This document shows, in pieces, positions 1-29,039 of a stretch of 64,000 nt of DNA. A program made the position numbers and the translations under genes. The first letter of the stretch is position 1. Each line of letters begins with the position of its first letter. The notes under the pieces were generated by a model. That model was not told the DNA's origin. It did no database searches and saw only the letters and a program-made list of their open reading frames with translations. Source of the DNA: Periplaneta americana. Taxonomy: Eukaryota; Arthropoda; Insecta; Blattodea; Blattidae. The DNA lies in the NCBI RefSeq assembly GCF_040183065.1, contig NC_091117.1:110487001-110551000 (forward strand). The letters are read 5' to 3'.

Positions 1-889
1 TTCGATCGCAAGAGTCGGCCATCCTGACTCAAGGTGTTTGTGGTTTTCCAATTTCCTCCGCTGGGATAGTACCAATTTCAAGAGCCACGATCCGATTCCT
101 TCGCAATCCCCATTACCCCTTCAACATCACTTCTCATTTATCATCCTATCATATCTCCCGATAGATCTACCACCTGTCCTATGTAGTAGCACAATCGGCA
201 AAGTTGTGTCCGGTGGGTAAAACACTGTAATGTTGAAAACGCCGGAAAAATTTATGCTGGCTTTTTGCGTTTTTAGTAGATTAAGAATAATTTCTTTGTA
301 TTTATTTTTTGAAGATAAACTAAATCCAACGTTATTAACTATTCTTGTTCTAATCTTGGATCACTATTATTTTTCTTATTTATTAATAATTTACCTAACG
401 TGATTAAATGTTCAAGATGTGTACTCTGTGTTCATGATTTTAAGTTATTGAAATTGATAAGAAATAAAAGTGACATGGAACAATTACATTTAGATTTTGA
501 CAATATTTAAAAATAGAGTTAAAAGAAGTAATCTACATTTTAATATTAAGAAATACTATTCTATGATTTGTATTCGATGTCCATCCTTTCTAAAAGCTAA
601 TTAAACAACGAATGTTCAGTTATTGGAACATTTATGCAGTGGAAAGGTATAAGGAGCTAAGGCCTACTATTAATTATAACCTTTTATTTAATCAGCATAC
701 AGTAATAAAACAAATGAAAGTTTTTAAACGTTTGAACTTAATATTTCGGAATTCTAGAAGTTTTAAAGACATTAATTTTCAATTGCCTGCAATTCATACA
801 CAATGAGAGTATGCTAGTCTAATTTGGTCTCCATGTTGTGAATCGTATAGACAAAACATCGAAAAAGTTCAAAATCGTTTCTTAGACTT
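1..889. other. AT-rich sequence without recognised feature
   Basis: Two short open frames lie here (38-220 and 612-806) but neither shows a domain, compositional bias or start context that supports a gene. I see no repeat pair or tRNA-like motif in this block. Confidence 0.5.
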
Positions 890-1124
890 CTTATTGGTTT
901 ATTTTACGACGCTTTATCACCTGCAATGGTTATCCAGCGTCTTAATGAAATGAAGATGATAATGCCAGTCCAGAGTCCAGCGCCGAAAGTTATCTTGCTC
1001 TTAATTGATTAAGAGAAAACCCTGGAAAAACTCAACCAGGTAAATTGTTCCAAACAAGATTTGAGCCCACGCTCGCGCGTTTCGCGGTCAGACATACTAA
1101 CTACCGTTACTCCAAAGCGGTGGA
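890..1124 (-). mobile_element. tRNA-derived SINE copy (family A), diverged
   Basis: The block matches copies at 13730-13982, 42588-42836 and 59681-59838 in its core (an acgacgcttta stretch, a gaaaaccctgg stretch and an aaccaggtaa stretch). The tRNA-like head lies at the high-coordinate end, so the element runs on the minus strand. Read on that strand, the expected B-box region is still visible (ttgagcccacgct on the plus strand), but it has drifted from the gaacccgggcc form kept in the 13.7-kb copy. The copy is older than that one and I could not find a clean target duplication. Confidence 0.8.
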
Positions 1125-1756
1125 CTTCCTGAGATTTATTTATTTTCAAACGTATAATCATATAATCATTCATATTTACGGAACAAAATTTCTACAATAA
1201 TTTACTTTCTGAATTTAAATTTAATTATCATCACTCACCAAACGTAGGTTAATAGCTGAACAATTTTATTGTTCATTTATAAAACATGGACTACTTGGTA
1301 ACAGTGCATTACTTGACCTAATACAGATTAATGCGAAAACATCAACTTTAAGAAATAGAGAAATGTTCTTTTTTTACATCACATACTGCGTTATCATAAA
1401 AATTCACCTCTTTTAAAAGTGTGTTTGGATATGAGCCCCTACCGCTTGAGCCATCCAGGTTGGCAATTTTTTTTTGTTATTTTTAGACCAAATTTCAAAA
1501 TGTCTCAAAAATGTATTTCGGATAATTGGTCAAAGATAGATATTACATAGGTCTACACCATATTATTTATACATTTTCGGTCTTACTAATAAACCGTGTA
1601 TAGCTTTAATACGAGACATATGCAAAATTGGACAGAACACGTTACTAATAAACCATACATAAGCAATGGTTGTATAAACAGTCTGTAACTAGACATGGAA
1701 ATTGCTTTGCAATAGTTACAATACATGAAACACCTTGCTTAAGCGTTGTATATACT
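1125..1756. other. Unannotated AT-rich spacer
   Basis: I see no gene, tRNA-like motif or terminal repeat here. Short T-runs near 1369 and 1470 are the only local structure. Confidence 0.5.
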
Positions 1757-3820
1757 TAGAGGAAAGTGCCCTAAACCGGACTCCTCCCCTTAAAGCGGAC
1801 TCCCAGTCTCCTGGCTCTGCATTCTCTTGAACTCTAGCAGAACTAAGTGTACAGTAAATAGTAGTTTAGGCTTCTACCACTCTGTAGCGGAGCACACACT
1901 TCGCCCGCTTCACTTGTTGCTTATCAGTCTGTAATTATGTGCTTTGACAGTGGAAAAAGTTTTTACACTGTGCTACATTTTTTGTTTTTTCTCCTAGATA
2001 TTGACAGGTAAGCCATTCGATCTATATATATATATCTTTAAATGGTAAGGTTTAAGGTTACTGCTTGGTATTAAACCGTTTAATTCAGATGTTTGGTTAA
2101 AAATCTATTGAGTTAACAAAGTGTTGGCTATAGTCGCGTAAACCGGACCCCCTTCAGTTGCCTAAACCGGACCCCTTATTTTTTCATGTTTAAAGTCTAC
2201 CTGTATTTGTACACACTCTTATTCTTTTGGAATTCTGTTCCAAATTTCAAGAGGATAACGGGGAAGGAAGGAATAATCTTTACAGCGTACCATTCAGGGT
2301 GGATCCAAATGAACTCCTTCACTCAGTGGTTTCTACACTTCATCGAGTTTGCCAATCCTACAAAGGAAAACCCTGTGCTGTTGCTCTTGAATGGCCACTT
2401 TAGACACACACAGAATATTGATCTGATCAACTTGGCAAAAACAAATCCTGTTACCATTGTGTCGCTGCCACCTCACTCTTCACAAAAACTACAATCTTTG
2501 GACAAAACTTTCATGGTTCCCCTGAAAGTTCACTACAGCAAGGAAATCAGGCAGTGGTTAAGGCACAATGAACGTGCTATCAGTGCTTTTGATGCAATAG
2601 ACCTGTTTGGCAAAGCCTATATTAGATGCCAAATAGCTCAAATAGCAATCAATGGATTTAAAGCAACCCTTGAACAAGAAGCTGTTTTCAGATGTCGAAT
2701 ACATTGAAGAGGCAAACAAAACGAGATTTTCTCTTTCTATGAATCTGTGTTAAAGAAACGAACAGCAGAAAATCAGAGCTTTCCAGAGAACGGAGAAGAA
2801 TGTGATGTGAACGAACCACGAGTTATTGTAGAGTTTGACCCAAATCAACGATCAACATCTTCAGCAGGTCAGGGTGTTCCTCTGTCATCAGCTACACTTG
2901 AGGATCCTCGGGGTTCTACATCTTCTAAGACGCGCCCGTTTGACATCACTCCCATTCCAAAATTTAAAAAGAGTTTCTCGAACAGGGGGCGAAAGATCTG
3001 TAGTTCTACGATCATCACATCTACGTCTTATGAAGCCCAATTGATGGAAGCTAAGAAAGCTAAAGAAGCAATGGAAGCTGAACAACACGCACGGAATCGT
3101 GCTCAAGGACGCAAAAGAAATGGCGGCCAGGGACGTGGTTCAGAAGTACAGCCTTCAAGAAAAGGGAAAGGGCTCGTGAAAAATCGCCTAAAATATTTGT
3201 GAAAAATGTGATAATCAAGCACTGAAGATGAAAACAACGTGACCTCTGAAATATCTGAATTGGATCTCTTCTCGAAAGTTTTCCCATCCAAAGATGATGC
3301 TTGGTATGTGTGTTTTGTGACAGAAAATTTTCGGAGGATTCTAAAGGGGAACTTTTGGTCATTTGCGTTATGTGCTGGGACTGAAAAGGACATGAACATC
3401 TGCGATTTTTGTCGCTAAACGATTTAATTCTGTTGTACGTTTTGTGTATCTTTTTTAAAATACATCCTATATCTCTTTTTAGAAACTAAAATCTGTAATT
3501 ATAATATTAGGCTTATGCTTTGAAACTAGATTATGTTTTCTCTTATTTAATACCTTTTTCCAAATTTGTTTAGTGTTATTTTGTTTAATTTTACAAGGGG
3601 TCCGATTTCGGCAACTATTTTGCAAATCGCCAAAGTGTAAGCTTATTGAAAATAATTTTTTTTCATACCAATTTTAATTATATTTTCTAAAAGTAAAATG
3701 TAAATGGTGCATAATATTATAAAGTAAATTTTACATGCTTTTAAAGCATAATTTTTTACTGTTTTATATTTTTTTTAATCAAAAACAAAATGGAGGTCCG
3801 GTTTTGGGCACTTTCCTCTA
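1757..3820 (+). mobile_element. pogo-like DNA transposon, TA target duplication
   Basis: The ends are inverted repeats: the left end begins gaggaaagtgccctaaaccg at 1759, and the right end is its near-complement (ggttttgggcactttcctc) ending at 3818. Both are flanked by TA (1757-1758 and 3819-3820), the duplication used by the Tc1/mariner/pogo superfamily. The element is 2,060 bp between the TAs. The motif taaaccggacccc recurs inside at about 2139 and 2165, which looks like subterminal binding sites. It carries a broken DDE transposase (separate entry). Its right end abuts the 3' tail of a LINE copy, so it landed in that tail. Confidence 0.9.
2186..3202 (+). pseudogene. pogo-like (DDE_1) transposase, N-terminally deleted and broken
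   Basis: The reading frame 2186-2707 aligns by eye with the second half of pogo/jerky-type transposases. It has a HSGW..NSFTQWF segment (residues about 39-50), a LLLLNGHFRH block where the family has L-x-D-G-H-x-x-H, then SLPPHSSQKLQSLDKTFM, and a C-terminal KAYIRCQIAQIAINGFKAT block. The helix-turn-helix DNA-binding half and the first catalytic Asp are missing. The second catalytic Asp appears as Asn (LNGH). A TGA at 2705-2707 interrupts the frame; the same frame resumes to 3202 with a Ser/Pro-rich then Lys/Arg/Glu-rich tail. A one-base shift near 2685 gives a more family-like DVEYIEEANK continuation, so a frameshift is the better explanation. The copy cannot be active. Confidence 0.85.
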
Positions 3821-3927
3821 CTTACGGCTTTTAAGGAACCCTTAGGTTCATTGCCGCCCTCACATAACCCACCATCAGTCCCTATTCTGTGCAAGATTAA
3901 TCCAGTTTATATTATCATATCTCAACA

Positions 3928-4219
3928 CCCTCAAATCATACGATGAAAGAGTAATGGAACGGAGAAAAATTCTCTCCGGTGCCGGGATTTGAACCCGGGT
4001 TTTCAGCTCTACGTGCTGACGCTTTATCCACTAAGCCACACCGGATTCCAACCCGGCGTCGGAAGAATCGTCTCAGTTTTAAGTTCCAACTCTTGGGTTC
4101 CCTCTAGTGGCCGTCCTCTGCACTACGTCATAGATATCTATGAACCTAGGACCGAAGTCCACACATGTGCTGAGGTGCACTCGTAATGAGTGACTAGTTG
4201 GCCGGGATCCCTCAAATCA
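3928..4219 (-). mobile_element. tRNA-containing SINE with 11-bp target duplication, inserted in the LINE
   Basis: The 11-mer ccctcaaatca occurs at 3928-3938 and again at 4209-4219, and the LINE sequence continues across it, so 3939-4208 is an insertion. Read on the minus strand, the element begins atcccggccaactagtcact, passes through about 160 bp of non-tRNA sequence, then a tRNA-like block (3975-4045), then a short hairpin ending (ggagagaatttttctcc), and the copy ends at the duplication. A related piece lacking the tRNA block is at 31160-31312. The tRNA block sits near the 3' end of the unit and not at its 5' end, which is unusual for a SINE. Confidence 0.85.
3975..4045 (-). other. tRNA-like cloverleaf inside the SINE (not a host tRNA gene)
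   Basis: Folded by eye on the minus strand, all four arms form. The acceptor stem is 7 of 7 pairs (TCCGGTG with CACCGGA). The D stem is GCTT/AAGC, the anticodon stem TCAGC/GCTGA, and the T arm CCGGG-TTCAAAT-CCCGG. The anticodon loop is ACGTAGA, which would give GTA (Tyr) at positions 34-36 but has C in place of the near-universal U33. There is no intron, and the 3' flank is the SINE hairpin. The A box (GGCTTAGTGGA) and B box (GGTTCAAATCC) are intact, so it could drive polymerase III. It is most likely a SINE promoter. Confidence 0.75.
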
Positions 4220-5560
4220 ATTTTAATATCATCCTCTAATCTACGTTTCGGTCTCCTAAAAGGTCTTTTTCCCTCCGGCCTCCCAACTGACACTCTCTAT
4301 GCATTTCTGGATTCGCCCATACGTACTACAATGCCCTGCCCATCTCAAACGTCTGGATTTTATGTTCCTAAATACGTCAGCTGAAGAATACAATGCGTGC
4401 AGGTCTGCGTTGTGTAACTTTGTCCATTCTCTTGCAACTTCATCCCTTACCCCCAAATATTTTCCTAAGAACCTTATTCTCAAACATCCTTAATCTCTGT
4501 TCCTCTCTCAAAGTGACAGTCCAAGTTTCACAACCATACAGAACAACCGGCAATATAACTGTTTTATAAATTCTAACTTTCAGATTTTTTGACAGCAGAC
4601 TAGATAACAAAAGCTTTTCAACCGAATAATAAAAGGCATTTCTCATGTTTATTCTGCGTTTAATTTCCTTCCGGGTGTCATTTATATTTGTTACTGTTGC
4701 TCCAAGATATTTCAATTTTTCCACCTCTTCGAAGGATAAATCTCCAATTTTTATATTTCCATTCGTACAATATTCTGGTCACGAGACATACAGTAATTAT
4801 ATACTTTGTCTTTTCGGGATTTATTTCCAAACCTATCCTTTACTTGCTTCAAATAAAATTCCCATCTTTTTCCCTAATCGTTTGTGGATTTTATTCTAAC
4901 ATATACACTTCATCTGTAGAGACAAGAAGCTGATGTAACCCGTTCAATTCCAAACCCTCTCTGTTACCCTGAACTTTCCTAATGGGATATTCTAGAGCGA
5001 AGTTAGAAAGTAAAGGTGATAGTGAATCTCCTTGCTTTAGCCTGCAATGAATTGGAAAAGCATCCGGCAGAGATTGGCTTATACGGACTCTGCTGTACGT
5101 TTCACTTAGACACAGCTTAATTAATTGAATTATTTTCTTAGGAATACCAACTTTTGTAAGAATATTATATAAAAACTTTTCTCTCAACAGTGTCATATGC
5201 CTTTTTGAAATCTGTGAATAACTGATGTACTGTACCCTTATACTCCCATTTTTTCTACAATATCTGTCGAATACAAAATATCTTATCAATAGTCGATCTA
5301 TTACGCTTGAAACCACATTAATGATCCCAATAATTTCATGTACATATGAAGTTAATCTTCTCAAAAGAATATTGGACAAAATTTTGTACGATGTCAATAA
5401 AAGTGATAAGTCCTCGAAAGTTACCACAGTTAGTCTTGTCCCCCTTCTTAAAGACAGGTACAATTATGGTACAATTTCCTTTTCCGAAACAGTAAGCTAA
5501 GTACAAGCTTATACATTTCGCTAGATATTCCGCTTCCACCCTCTTTTATTAATTCCGCAG

Positions 5561-5900
5561 GACACATGAACCTTTTCAGATTTTCTAACAGTTGCAGCTC
5601 GCTGCAGCAAGCGAGCGGGTCAAGATCTGTTCTTTTATTGTGTGTAATGTTTAAGTATAATTACTCTTACTGAAGTAATTTTCATCACAATTTTTATTAC
5701 TTATTCGCTTCACAGATCAGTAGATTTTGCAGTCATTAACTTGTGAAATAAAGTGGCAGATATGTAGAAATTTACTTTGCTAATGTCTGAGAAACAATGT
5801 CTTAATTCTGTCTCAGACTTCCTTGTACAGCAAAGCTGAATTTATTATTGTTTATTTCTCCAGAGGAAAGATGAGATACAGTTTGTTTGTAGGAGCAGCC
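5561..5900. other. Unannotated sequence beyond the LINE
   Basis: A short GC-richer patch (about 5585-5625, with a ctcgctgcagcaagcgag palindromic stretch) is followed by plain AT-rich sequence. No gene is visible. Confidence 0.4.
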
Positions 5901-14921: not shown

Positions 14922-17190
14922 CATCATCATCATCAATAACTTCAAGGTTTAGGCCGATGGCCTGTTCCGCCTCCAGAATTTTATCCATCAAACTGGTCTC
15001 TCCAACGTCTCTTTGGTCTTCCCACTCGTCTTCTTCGTGTAGGTCTATAACACCATGTTCTGAAAGGTATCCTGTCGTTGGGCATTCTTGTTATATGGCC
15101 GTACCAATTATTTCTATATTTTTCAATTATAGTTATTACACTCTCGATATTAAGTTCTCGACGTATATCTTCGTTTCTCTTATGGTCCTGTAGTCTAAAT
15201 CCTGCTAGTGGCCTTAAGAGTCTCATCTCAGCGGCCTCAATTCTTCTCTGTTGGGCTCTAGTCAGAATCCACGTTTCTGAACCATATAAAAATGTCGGAA
15301 TTGCCAGTGTCTTGTAAAATTTGAGTACAGTTTTTCTGTCGACTTTATTTATGAGTGTACGTTTAATTGTACCAATAAGTCTTAAAAATTTATTTAACTT
15401 GTTTTCTACGTCTGTGGAGGATATGTAAGAGAGATCGCATCCAAGGTAAGTAAAAGAATTTACTTGTTCAATCATCTTATCCTCTATTACAATTTTAGTT
15501 CTTATTGTATTATTTCCGCAGAAGCCAAATACTTTAGTTTTCCTGTGTGATATTTTTAGATTGTAGTTATTAGCAACAATTCTCAACAGATGGACTGCTC
15601 TCTGTAGGTTGTCTTCAGAATCAGCCAACACCAACTGGTCGTCTGCGAAAAGTAAGTAATCTAAAATTATATTATCTATAAAATAATGTGTTTTTAAATT
15701 GTTCTGCCATTCTCTTACGGCTTCGTCTAGGTACAAATTAAAAAGAGTAGGTGATAAGGGACACCCTTGTCTAACCCCTTGGTTAACTTCTCGCAAGTTG
15801 GTGGTAATCTTGTTGATATTCATTTTGATTTTTGTATTTTTGTACATACTTTGTATCACCCTTATTAGATGCTCAGGAATTCCTTTCTTTTTTAATATCA
15901 TCCACAATTTTGTTCTGCTAATCATATCAAATGCTTTCTCAAAGTCTATGAAAGCCATATATGTGGGAATATTAAATTCGACATGTTTTTCTATAATCTG
16001 CGTTATGGTGAAGATATTATCAATACATGATCTGTTTTTGCGGAACCCACTCTGTTCTTCTGCTAATAGCACTTCTGCAATTTTGTTTAGTCTTTGAGAG
16101 ATAATCTTGGCATATATTTTATAGCCTGAGTTAAGAAGGCTAATCCCTCTGTAATTTTCACAATTCTTCCTGTTCCCTTTTTTAAAAATGGGAGTAATTA
16201 GTGCTATATTCCATTCTTCTGGTATGTGACCAAACTTCCAACATATATTTAAAAAACTTAAAAATCTTTGTAAAAAGCATTGTGGCGCATATTTAAACAA
16301 TTCCAGATTTAAACCATCTGATCCCGGCGATTTTCTATTTCTGGTTATTTGGAGAGCATTTTTCAATTCATCTATTGAAATTGGGTCCACATATTCATTG
16401 TATGTAGCCGTTTGTATGTTTTCTTCATCATCCTTACTAGTCCATAAATATTGGTAAAAATCTAGCCATTGTATCTCAGAAATGGGGTTCCAGTTTATAG
16501 TATCTTTTACTTCTTTATTTAGTTCTTTCATAATCTTGTATGCTTTAGCTTGTCTGCCATTAATATCATACTCAATATTATTATTTACAAATTTATCCCA
16601 GCTTTCTCTTTTAATTTTCCTTATTTCTCTCTTTGCAACTGCAGAGAGTCTGTTATATTTAATGCGATTTTCATCCGTGGGGTGGGAAATATATAATAAG
16701 TATGCATCTTTTTTGTCTTTTATTATTGTTGCTAATTCGTCGTTCCAAATGTTAAGTCCTCTTCTAGTACGTCTTTTCTTTCGTTTACCTAGGGCTTCTG
16801 ACGCAGCCTGTGTTAGAATAGTTTTCAATAATTGCCATTCTTCATTTACATTTAAACTCATAGGTGTTTCCACTACTTGTAGGGCTATTCTATTCTGATA
16901 GAGTTGTCGGATACTCATGTCTTCTAATAGGTTGATTTTGTATACCTCTTCTTTCTGATATAATTTTGTTTTACTTCTGTACCATTTTGGGGGCATATTA
17001 AATTTAGAGATTAGCAAGAAGTGGTCTGTATTAATATCATATCCCCTATATACTCTCGTGTCTTCAATAAATGTAGCTAGCTTTTTATTTACTATTACAT
17101 AATCAATAATTGATCTATAGCCTCTTGAGCTCCATGTGTATTTGTGGATGTCTTTGTGGCGAAAAAAGCTGTTAGTCACTTTAAGGTCAT
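14865..17190 (-). mobile_element. 5'-truncated non-LTR retrotransposon with microsatellite tail
   Basis: A LINE on the minus strand is defined by the 732-codon frame 14981-17179 (separate entry) and ends in an (ATT)n/(ATC)n array at about 14889-14937, which serves as its tail. The 5' end falls inside the endonuclease domain, so roughly the first third of the coding region is missing. I did not find a certain target duplication. The clade is uncertain; RTE-like is possible. Confidence 0.85.
14981..17179 (-). pseudogene. LINE ORF2: endonuclease C-terminus plus reverse transcriptase
   Basis: This 732-codon frame is the longest in the window. Residues 1-60 look like the end of an AP-type endonuclease (RSIIDYVIVN..., then NTDHFLLISKF). 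The reverse transcriptase follows, with NRKSPGSDGLNLELFK near residue 280, IFKKGNRKNCENYRGISLL near 330, FIDFEKAFDMISR near 395 (first catalytic Asp), NQGVRQGCPLSPTLFNLYLD near 460, and LLFADDQLVLAD near 505 (FADD, the catalytic pair intact). The C-terminus carries LYGSETW and GRPKRRWRDQFD. The frame ends in a stop, but a one-base shift at the end (about 14985) reads DKILEAEQAIGLNLEVIDDD into the tail, which looks like the original C-terminus. The protein lacks the first endonuclease motifs, so it could not mobilise itself. Little decay suggests a recent insertion. Confidence 0.85.
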
Positions 17191-24977: not shown

Positions 24978-25202
24978 CTACAAAGTGGTGCGAATTGAGA
25001 AACTACGTCATAAGTTATTATTTCCTTAATTCTAGCCTATAATCACCACACGTTCGAAAATCCTACTAAGTTAAATGTTTTTTAACATTTCTTTAAACCA
25101 ATAACATTATAAGATTATGGATTCCTTTGCATATAAATCCGTTATTTAGCTACAAATTGTTATTTTGCAATTCATTTTTAATTTTCAGAGAAGTCTATAT
25201 TT

Positions 25203-25523
25203 TATCTTAAAAATATTTATTTCAGTCACTGACTTCACAGCATATGCTTAAGGTGCTACACCTTTACATTACATGTTTAAAGGACGTATGAACGTTTTCG
25301 TTGATCTACGCCAACATCGTCAGATACGAAGTACATTTTAGCAGTATCAGTGCTCTCTACATAATATCTACAAATACAAAACATATTTAGTGGCATGCAA
25401 AATGAGACATATTAAAAACCAACATTGCTGTGATACACATTGACATTCACATATGACTGCCTTGATTGTCACTTACTTAAAATGCACGTATAGATTACAA
25501 AATATATTGATTCACACACACAT

Positions 25524-25615
<92 letters not shown>

Positions 25616-26243
25616 GCAAGTCTTCACATATGAGATAATAAATTGACATGATTTAAAAATGATAAAAATAATAAAATCTAAAACTAAGATAAAAATATTA
25701 TGAATGTGAAGAGTTGCAAAATTACAGTAATTACATTTATTATATTCCTATTTCTGTTTCACAATAATATATATATATTTCCACCATTCAGAAACGTATG
25801 TATCTTGGTTTGTGTGACGTAATTATTTGAATATTTTTCAAGTTTATATGGTTTTATTATAAATGTCAATATATTATGCGTTGGATTGTTTGGTGTTGAT
25901 TAATAATATATACTGTATTTGATTTTGTCGATAATGCTGTTCCTCCAATCTGGAAGTAATTGAAATCAATAAGTTGATGACCCAATTTTAACGGATTTAA
26001 CATTTAATTTGTATGATATGTTAAATGTAAGAAACTTACATGGCGATGTATTGTCGATATCCAATACTGTAATTGTAATGAGCGTGTGGTATGGCGCAAG
26101 TCAAGTATCAGAATTAAGTGAAAAAGATCAAATATTGAATAAATAAATCACTACTAATGATACTGTTGAAGCAAGTATTTAACTGGCATCATATGAATTT
26201 GAATGAAGGTCAAAATTCGGTGCTGTTATTTTGGGTAATGGAT
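25203..26243 (-). repeat. Left inverted terminal repeat of the Penelope-like element
   Basis: This arm is the inverse of 27788-28820. It carries a (CA)n(TA)n array at about 25514-25610 where the other arm has a (TG)n/(CG)n-type array, so the two simple repeats have expanded differently since duplication. Confidence 0.9.
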
Positions 26244-26325
26244 ATACAATGTATATACAGTAAAAAATACCTAACATATAGTTGATGAATTGAAAAATAT
26301 CTCAATTGATAAAGATTAAAGACTA

Positions 26326-27150
26326 ATGTCATTAGACATAGAAAATTTATATACGAACATTCCTGTCCAAGAAACAATAGAAGTAATTAAAACAAAGCTT
26401 ATTGAAAATAAAATTCACGATTCAATAATCAAACAAATAGTTCAGTTAACAACACTATGTACGTCACAAAATTATTTCACTTTTAATCAAAAAATATATA
26501 AACAGAACAGTGGTTTAGCAATGGGCAGTCCGTTATCAGGCATATTAACAGAAATCTTTTTACAACATATGGAAGGAAAACACATTCAAAACTTACTCAA
26601 TAAAAATGGTATAATATATTATCGCAGATATGTAGACGATACTATCATAATACACAACAACAAATCGAGCAGTGATTCCATTGCATACGATTTCAATCAA
26701 ATTCACAATAATTCAAAATTTACAGTTGAATTGGAAACAAACAAATCCATACCATTTTTGGATATAAAAATAATAAAAAAAAGTAACCTATCCTTCGACA
26801 TCTATAGGAAACCAACACATACTAATCATACTATACCAGAGCATCCTCCTGCCCATAAATTAATTATGTTTCACTATTTAATTAATAGAGCATTGCAGAT
26901 TCCTTTATCCCGTACAAAATACAGAAAAGAAATACAGAACATTCTTGACACCGCGCATGAAAACGGTTATAATAGAACATTAATTAGAAAACTAATATCT
27001 AAGAAAGAAAATGAACAGAAAATTAAAAGTTCGTCCACTTTATCTAGATCTACTAAAAAGAGCAACAAAACGTGGTCGACTTTGACTTATAATAAAATAA
27101 TTTCTATATTTTTTCCAAAAAGAAAACATAAAAATAGCATACAAAACTAA
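26326..27150 (+). pseudogene. Penelope-type reverse transcriptase (N-terminally truncated)
   Basis: Visible motifs are SLDIENLYTNIP near residue 2 (first catalytic Asp), a QNSGLAMGSPLSGILTEIF block near residue 60, and YYRRYVDDTIIIH near residue 98 (the YVDD catalytic centre). These are followed by a thumb-like FTVELETNKSIPFLDIKI segment near 135 and FDIYRKPTHTNHTIP near 155. These are the signature blocks of PLE reverse transcriptases. The upstream ~250-300 residues of the usual protein are missing. The ATG at 26326 lies inside the motif and is not a natural start. The frame ends at 27150 just before the nuclease, and a one-base shift in an A-rich run near 27120-27135 would join them. The reverse transcriptase core itself is intact as far as I can see. 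Confidence 0.88.
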
Positions 27151-27481
27151 CAATAAAATCAACAATAACATTAATAACCATTTGCACCATATTGATAAAC
27201 TTAATAAGAAAGGAGTGTATATGTTAAATTATAAAACCTGTAATGCCAAATACATCGGGCAAACAAAACGGAATTTCAAAGTAAGATATAAAAAACACAT
27301 CTCCGATTTTAAACATAACAGAGCAAAGTCAAAATATGCATCCCATCTCATTCAAAACGGACACGAACTTGGCTCAGTAAATGATACTTTAACAATAATT
27401 AAAACATATAAAGATAATATTCATATAAATACAGCGGAAGAATATTATATTTCGAAATATTATAAAAAAATAAATCTTTAA
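27140..27481 (+). pseudogene. GIY-YIG endonuclease domain of the Penelope-like element
   Basis: The frame from about 27140 reads KTNNKINNNINNHLHHIDKL, then the GIY-YIG core. GVY is in KKGVYMLNYK and YIG in CNAKYIGQTKRNF. A catalytic-type Arg follows in KVRYKKHISDF, then a HLIQNGHEL segment, and the final Glu in NTAEEYYISKYY. This nuclease nicks target DNA to prime reverse transcription in PLEs. It is in the +1 frame relative to the reverse transcriptase frame 26326-27150. About 99 codons follow the internal ATG at 27182. Confidence 0.85.
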
Positions 27482-27787
27482 TTAATGAAAATTTACCTAA
27501 CATACAGAACACAGTATACAACATATAACGTGATGTATTCATGCGCGCACTGTCCACATCTTCCTCAGACCATGACATACGTAGTCGTCACACAGTCCTC
27601 ACACAACCACCACATAATCAACATCTAAGAAGGCACGTCTACACTAAGTAAGTCTATGTAGATATTTTTATGCTGTTTTGGATAATATAACTAAAAAGCT
27701 TGATTTATACATTCACTCAACTAAATTATAATTTCAAATTGCTACTAGTACATAATAACCGCACACAAATATTTATTTTCGTAACTA

Positions 27788-28820
27788 TTCCATTACCCAA
27801 AATAACAGCATCGAATTTTGACCTTCATTTAAATTCATATGATGTCAGTTAAATACTTGCTTCATCAATATCATTAGTAGTGATTTATTTATTCAATATT
27901 TGATCTTTTTCAGTTAATTCTGATACTTGACTTGCGCCATACCACATGCTCATTACAATTACAGTATTGGATATCGACAATACATCGCCATGTAACTTTC
28001 TTACATTTAACATATCATACAAATTAAATGTTAAATCCGTTAAAATTGGGTCATCAACTTATTGATTTCAATTACTTCCAGATTGGAGGAATAGCATTAT
28101 CGACAAAATCAAAAATACATTACTAATCAACACCAAACAACCCAACGTATAATATATTGACATTTATAATAAAACCATATAAACTTGAAAAATATTCAAA
28201 TAATTACGTCACACAAACCAAGATACATACGTTTCTGAATGGTGGAAATATATATATTATTGTGAAACAGAAATAGGAATATAATAAATGTAATTACTGT
28301 AATTTTGCAACTCTTTACATTCATAATACTTTTTATCTTAGTTTTAGATTTTATTATTTTTATCACTTTTAAATCATGTCAATTTATTATCCCATACGTG
28401 AAGACTTGCATTTATGTGTGTGTGTGTGCGTGTGCGTGCGTGCGTGCGTGCGTGCGCGTGCGCGTGCGCGTGCGCGTGCGCGTGCGCGTGCGTGTGCGTG
28501 TGTGTGTGTGTGTCAATATATTTTGTAATCTATACGTGTATTTTAAGTAAGTGACAATCAAGGCAGTCATATATGTGTGTCAATGTGTATCACAGCGATG
28601 TTGGTTTTTAATATGTCTCATTTTGCATGCCACTAAATATGTTTTGTATTTGTAGATATTATGTAGAGAGCACTGATATTGCTAAAATGTACTTCGTATC
28701 TGATGATTTTGGCGTAGACCAACGAAAACGTTCATAAGTCCTTTAAACATGTAATGTAAAGGTGTAGCACCTTAAACATATGCTGTGAAGTCAGTGACTG
28801 AAATAAATATTTTTAAGATA
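27788..28820 (+). repeat. Right inverted terminal repeat of the Penelope-like element
   Basis: This is the inverse of 25203-26243. The frames inside (for example 28305-28550, a Cys/Val/Arg alternation) only reflect the (TG)n/(CG)n array at about 28413-28514. Confidence 0.9.
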
Positions 28821-29039
28821 CAAATTGTTAGCTAAATATACATTCACCCGAACGATTAAATTAGATACAATATCACCACGCTGCTGACACAAAGAAGTGG
28901 CAGAAATCAAGTGACATGATGGAACTTCATATGGCAGATTGTAACAATATCACTAGATGCCACACTACTACGGTATCTTGTTTTAAACTAGCAGTGGTGC
29001 CATTTAGGAAGCGGTGAGATTTATGCTACTCTACTCTAT

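Follow-up and report, generated by a model that had tools for sequence, protein, structure and literature searches.

Penelope-like elements (PLEs) have been described as forming a third class among the retroelements of eukaryotes. The closest described systems include the Penelope/Poseidon-type PLEs with a GIY-YIG endonuclease, in particular that of Anolis carolinensis (PAc). PAc combines a reverse transcriptase (RT) with this nuclease and has a tail of 30-40 nucleotides (nt), which is bounded by two neighbouring RT start sites close to the beginning of the open reading frame (ORF) (PMC11167929). In vitro, its full-length protein cleaves and extends both strands of AT-rich targets with a preference for cutting at 5'-ATT-3'; that study leaves the later integration steps unproven and describes them as still to be validated (PMC11167929). 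In Adineta vaga, Pen2a_Av and its relatives carry pseudo-long terminal repeats (pLTRs) of about 0.2 kb, and it was stated already in 2013 that a tail is optionally present on one inverted repeat (PMC3846280). Inverted pLTRs, tails, target duplications and two start sites are known from published work. Here we describe a PLE in a 64-kb stretch of contig NC_091117.1 of Periplaneta americana (hereafter the window), in which RT and GIY-YIG sequences lie between two inverted arms. This element is probably one insertion built of two PLE complementary DNAs (cDNAs).

Like PAc, the Periplaneta family encodes an RT plus a GIY-YIG nuclease, has a short tail that appears to be bounded by two start sites, and probably has both strands of AT-rich targets cut and extended (PMC11167929). 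It differs from PAc in that each resolved two-armed insertion carries one tail, whereas the cited in vitro results give no strand difference in the start site, and in that its target appears to be the symmetric ANC-N12-GNT rather than 5'-ATT-3' (PMC11167929). In contrast to the A. vaga elements, with short pLTRs and junctions that are palindromes in the authors' reading, the Periplaneta arms vary in length and their junctions are mostly asymmetric; the duplication, also unlike the A. vaga case as described in that report, peaks at 12 bp, and each resolved two-armed copy has a tail at one of its ends (PMC3846280). Searches of the open-access literature on this subject turned up neither tail exclusivity nor the 12-bp peak nor the symmetric target; subscription papers were mostly outside these searches, and we make no claim of priority. 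Two mutually inverted cDNAs primed from two strands, as proposed for the Periplaneta PLE, also arise by twin priming of LINE-1 (long interspersed nuclear element 1). There the second priming takes place within the RNA, so that an inverted 5' part comes to lie beside a direct 3' part, whereas in the Periplaneta PLE two 3' ends face outward, each from a fixed start site.

Sequence evidence supports assignment of the element to the endonuclease-bearing (EN+) PLEs, because the RT, judged from a sister copy, is nearest to telomerase RTs among solved structures, and the element has a GIY-YIG domain, pLTR-like arms, a tail and a target duplication. A preliminary description of the window, made from its letters alone, had proposed such an element, with a YVDD-containing RT and a GIY-YIG nuclease between the arms. 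Profile searches agree, with matches to RVT_1 (E=1.1e-12) and, above the cut-off, to GIY-YIG (PF01541; E=2.9e-6 and 3.3e-6 for two frame versions), and the YVDD sits in 'RRYVDDTIII'. The sister copy L011 matched both profiles as well (RVT_1, E=6.4e-14; PF01541 above the cut-off), and the best solved-structure matches of its RT frame were telomerase RTs (E=1.6e-6, residues 307-414). The GIY-YIG lies downstream of the RT in its own frame in both copies. The pLTRs typical of PLEs are seen in L011, a tandem copy (771-5561), and in the inverted copies; the optional 3' tail is 39-40 nt long here; and duplications were found in the window (12 bp) and in 40/48 copies tested. A hammerhead ribozyme in the pLTR has been reported for PLEs, and is not treated here as universal (PMC11167929). 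Of 73 arms, 64 contain a hammerhead-like string (CTGATGA, hairpin, GAAAA, short hairpin, TC), whose conservation scarcely exceeds that of the whole arm (0.972 versus 0.967), and with Rfam no hammerhead was matched at E<=10, either in window positions 25000-29000 or in four other loci.

We next compared the window element with itself. The inverted arms, predicted to align over at least 900 bp, did so over about 1.04 kb, in five ungapped blocks that are 94-98% complementary (Table 1). The three longest inverted pairs of the whole window are all among these blocks. A break between blocks coincides with a (CA)n(TA)n versus (GT/GC)n stretch, and this microsatellite is strongly diverged between the left (25510-25615) and right (28410-28514) arms. 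The 11-bp direct repeat reported outside the arms is present at 25152-25162 and 28820-28830, and one extra matching T on each side extends it to the 12-bp TACAAATTGTTA; the right-hand T may equally be the arm end. With its neighbours the duplication reads C-TACAAATTGTTA-G, and the adjoining bases fit the family target. The right arm stops at the tailless start site (...AAGA, followed by TAC common to the duplication), and the tail of about 40 bp at the left end (25163-25202) has no counterpart at the right end, as originally noted. The arrangement had also been called complete, which it is not: the RVT_1 match starts at profile position 71 of 205, which indicates 5' truncation inside the RT, and RT and GIY-YIG occupy different ORFs. 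The copy is therefore dead and shortened.

To place this copy within its family we searched the 3,231,669,367 bases (91 contigs) of the P. americana assembly, which comprises 3.23 Gb in 91 scaffolds, 17 of them chromosome-sized, with HiFi and Hi-C data (PMC12774602). The whole-element query returned at least 219 matches, with scores for the best 40 among 1,868 candidate places; the family searches listed 1,188 to 1,868 candidates each, again with the best 40 scored. The whole-element sample consists of 40 loci that were read, namely the window locus and L009-L047, of which L012 and L013 overlap. From queries bearing the tail we took 14 two-armed loci, which are able to test against two tails only. 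Among the 40 scored loci of an arm-only, tail-free query, 18 further two-armed loci were read at 96 bases per end, three two-armed loci had already been counted (L050, L060, L062) and four had been read earlier; the cluster C1:14652 (too complex), C6:186249 (one end unresolved) and 13 single-arm loci were left out.

A second, inverted piece was found in 20/40 loci of the whole-element sample, although that of L022 leaves the stretch read and L019 is without one outer end. The other 20 had no recognised inverted arm; in L016 and L021 one end lay beyond the stretch read. Wherever both ends are visible, both pieces begin at the element 3' end. The shorter piece is 13 nt long in L040, where it consists of tail alone, and reaches about 1,680 nt in L010; in the window, where the left arm, judged from its sequence, is the shorter of the two cDNAs, it measures 1.04 kb plus tail. 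Second-arm length would differ between copies because each arm is a cDNA end. Many assembly loci show the same kind of arrangement with arms of different length and with different direct repeats. Confinement to one contig, named in the preliminary description as a sign of misassembly, was thus not what we found, and its expectation that the arrangement would be informative about integration was borne out by comparison of sister copies.

All two-armed copies with both ends resolved carry exactly one tail (50/50). These comprise 18/18 copies of the whole-element sample (L019 and L022 are uncounted, one end being lost or beyond the stretch read), 14/14 found with tail-bearing queries and 18/18 found with the tail-free query. 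Since short second pieces are easier to recognise when tailed, we also counted without L031, L037 and L040, which were recognised mainly by the tail (47/47), and in the parts selected irrespective of tail (33/33, or 15 + 18). Independent choice at each end would give 33/33 with a probability of 0.5^33 = 1.2e-10. Two counted copies deviate slightly: the tail of L015 has 34 of the 39 nt, and the tailless end of L024 begins about 10 nt further in. A candidate partial second tail at C1:25856 proved to be a chance alignment, as the fetched locus, L049, has one tail. Among the 3' ends of the 20 loci of the whole-element sample without a recognised inverted arm, eight have the tail, eight are without it, one has 16 nt of it (L034), one passes it (L013) and two are unresolved (L021, L047). 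The equal frequency of tailed and tailless ends suggests that both start sites are commonly used. The shorter cDNA carries the tail in 14/19 copies (L022 uncounted; p=0.064), or 11/16 without the three tail-found copies; a rule placing the tail always on the shorter cDNA was rejected, as the excess is not significant.

The tail sequence recurs in sister copies, with 90-100% identity where matched, and in L011 the arm leads into the tail, beyond which comes the upstream portion of the coding region. Because L011 reads on through the tail, the tail is ordinary, templated element sequence. The unpaired bases of the window copy had been put down to an untemplated or tail addition; they are the PLE tail, and we rejected an untemplated origin for them since the same sequence is templated in sister copies and L011. 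The tail contains an ATG that may be an ORF start, and the L011 frames have stops there. Three other loci have unusual 3' ends. Near 3003-3030, L034 has the first 16 nt of the tail, then a G run and then flank, which has a 10-base word in common with the 5' side; unlike the window tail, this G run looks like a real untemplated addition. L013, near 740-1047 (the right part of the L012 locus), runs about 270 nt beyond the tail into the upstream coding region and is either a tandem remnant or a copy whose 3' end lies at neither of the start sites. At L071 (C3:38088558), a long A run separates the tail end from the flank, and there is no recognisable duplication.

Target-site duplications were scored by a script that slid the boundary by a few bases and took the best shared word at the outer flanks. 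The cut-off of 6.5 was the top score of a swapped-partner null from the first 30 copies; one copy equals it. We tested 48 copies (30 + 18), leaving out L011, L012, L013, L017 and L022 as multi-copy or complex; the ends of L019, L031 and L040 were not both in the form the script needs, and L031 and L040 each have a 12-base shared word by eye. A score of 6.5 was reached by 40/48 copies. The duplication was 12 bp in 27 of these, 13 bp in three, 16 bp in three, 10 bp in two, 11 bp in two, and 8, 14 and 17 bp in one each; the 14-, 16- and 17-bp cases contain a mismatch and look like chance extensions. Around the 27 exact 12-bp sites, C stands at -1 in 23 (p=2.4e-10) and G at +1 in 21 (p=2.1e-8; the impossible base was excluded per place), with both in 18. 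Further out, the mirrored pairs are A at -3 (19 sites) with T at +3 (18), and T at -5 (19) with A at +5 (16). The later set alone gives C at -1 in 7/9 and G at +1 in 7/9. Read from these sites, the family target is probably the symmetric ANC-N12-GNT. Some targets have long inverted repeats (10 bp in the window, 8 bp in L030, 7 bp in L039), and for wider palindromy 24 sites were no different from swapped flanks (114/300 as high). Target symmetry is thus confined to positions close to the duplication. The peaked duplication length and the mirror-symmetric site suggest a dimer cutting both strands.

The best explanation for the whole, and one that we consider likely, is a symmetric 12-nt staggered break at which both 3' ends prime, with one cDNA per start site. 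The RT/GIY-YIG protein, probably as a dimer, would cut both strands at ANC-N12-GNT to leave 12-nt 3' overhangs, and PLE RNA would be reverse transcribed from each 3' end of the break. One cDNA would start at the inner site, after ...AAGATA, without the tail; the other would start 39-40 nt further 3', after ...GCAAAA, with the tail. The two would extend toward each other, halt at different points and join nearly blunt, and fill-in of the overhangs would yield the 12-bp duplication. In the window, the shorter cDNA would have given the left arm, and the longer one the RT and endonuclease part with the right arm. The two outward ends, the single tail, the 12-bp peak, the symmetric target and the usually differing inner ends can be read off the copies themselves; from them we infer the dimer, the priming from 3' overhangs, the order of events, the joining of cDNAs and the use of one RNA or one source copy.

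The number of RNAs involved bears on the strongest alternative, which keeps priming on both strands but has two independent RNAs, with the one-tail rule imposed by an asymmetric protein dimer. We compared 73 arm ends, each 150 nt or longer, including 22 copies with both arms. Mean identity was 97.4% between arms within a copy versus 94.1% between copies, the partner arm was the nearest of 72 in 18/44 tests, and 12/34 doubleton variants (in exactly two arms) fell within one copy, where 0.8% was expected. The arms of one copy therefore share private variants above chance. This favours one source, although several RNAs of one locus would suffice, and the tail lying on the shorter cDNA frequently but not always (14/19, or 11/16) fits two RNAs. 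We give this alternative an appreciable but minor probability.

Fold-back self-priming, in which a strand folds and is copied back into an inverted arm, has been proposed for A. vaga Penelope elements from palindromes at inverted junctions (PMC3846280). It predicts arms that meet at equal element positions. Of 32 inner junctions, drawn from the whole-element sample and from compact copies, 24 were resolved by the script and the other eight, being mis-chained, were excluded. In L044, near 2795-2815, both arms reach the junction at one and the same element position, so that it is a true hairpin, unlike most resolved copies. In the compact copies L049, L050, L056, L058 and L062, the meeting point lies in the AT/GT microsatellite of the arm, at roughly matching positions on the two sides, which suggests joining via self-complementary repeats. 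While these six copies fit self-priming, the arms end at different element positions in 18/24 resolved junctions (smallest difference 17 nt; 2662 versus 1100 in the window). Overlap at the junctions is small, at -4 to +5 nt in 18/24 and -9 in one, with five within a microsatellite. Moreover, a tailed strand copied to its end should give two tails, which occur in 0/50 copies. As a general explanation, self-priming is therefore improbable.

The remaining alternatives fare worse. The preliminary description took the element for a unit with inverted terminal repeats of about 1 kb, and the 94-98% likeness of the window arms would suit such fixed, element-encoded repeats. This is highly improbable, given the variable second-arm length from L040 to L010 and the 20/40 loci without a recognised inverted arm (including L016 and L021, each with one end beyond the stretch read). 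Two separate opposite insertions, or a later inversion, could be imagined where PLE copies cluster, as do three near C4:122.52-122.54 Mb; we regard this as equally improbable, as a single direct repeat encloses both arms in 40/48 tested copies and the arms of one copy have private variants in common. Assemblies are error-prone at inverted repeats. An inverted collapse is nonetheless the least probable explanation of all, and misassembly of the window locus very unlikely, because dozens of loci with different flanks, arm lengths and duplications follow the same logic, in an assembly from HiFi and Hi-C data (PMC12774602).

Several observations weigh against the symmetric break with two cDNAs. 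Eight of the 48 copies lack a good duplication, 13 of the 40 good duplications differ in length from 12 bp, L043 has one tail and no recognisable duplication, and L013 ends well beyond the tail. The window arms are not mutual nearest neighbours, their partners ranking 10 and 6 of 72, and gene conversion between arms could be part of the source of the shared variants. The overlap at junctions is small, and the proposed joining of the cDNAs is accordingly tentative. The survey covers one genome and close subfamilies. In addition, the cited Anolis experiments, with no start-site difference between strands in vitro, do not predict tail exclusivity (PMC11167929).

The coordinates of the window copy are given in Table 1. 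Elsewhere in the window are a perfect palindrome (12573-12690/12695-12812; 118-nt arms, 100% complementary, 4 nt between) and, at 14981-17179 on the minus strand, a 732-aa open frame that by eye resembles a LINE-type reverse transcriptase.

Table 1. Features of the PLE copy in the window (TSD, target-site duplication).
Feature	Positions	Strand	Remarks
Left TSD copy, 12 bp	25151..25162	.	TACAAATTGTTA; C before, as in family target consensus
PLE tail, 39-40 nt	25163..25202	-	Putative outward end of left cDNA, this end only; same sequence in sister copies
Left arm	25203..26242	-	Probable shorter cDNA, inverted; inner end truncated
Inner junction between two cDNAs	26243..26245	.	3 bases assigned to neither
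Internal part of longer cDNA	26246..27788	+	5'-truncated within RT
Partial reverse transcriptase ORF, 274 aa	26326..27150	+	YVDD; RVT_1 profile positions 71-186 of 205
GIY-YIG endonuclease remnant, 99 aa	27182..27481	+	ORF separate from RT
Right arm, pLTR-like	27789..28818	+	Probable 3' part of longer cDNA
Hammerhead-like motif in right arm	28700..28740	+	Non-canonical, without Rfam match
Right TSD copy, 12 bp	28819..28830	.	First bases may belong also to arm end; then G
Inverted block 1	25200-25541/28482-28823		94% complementary
Inverted block 2	25610-25695/28330-28415		97%
Inverted block 3	25691-25776/28248-28333		98%
Inverted block 4	25769-25920/28106-28257		95%
Inverted block 5	25918-26242/27789-28113		97%

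A large family with readable ends allows stagger, target symmetry and the one-tail rule to be counted, and each is a direct prediction for the bench. Under the proposed mechanism, an empty allele at the window locus would hold CTACAAATTGTTAG once. A wider and more tentative proposal, on which we are nearly evenly divided and lean slightly against, is that integration is obligately symmetric in PLEs generally: a dimeric GIY-YIG/RT protein would break a palindromic site with a fixed 3' overhang of 12 nt, and two reverse transcriptions, perhaps of one RNA, would be locked to start sites 39-40 nt apart, leaving one tail per completed two-ended insertion. If true, this obligate symmetric integration would separate PLEs from the one-strand priming of LINE-type elements.

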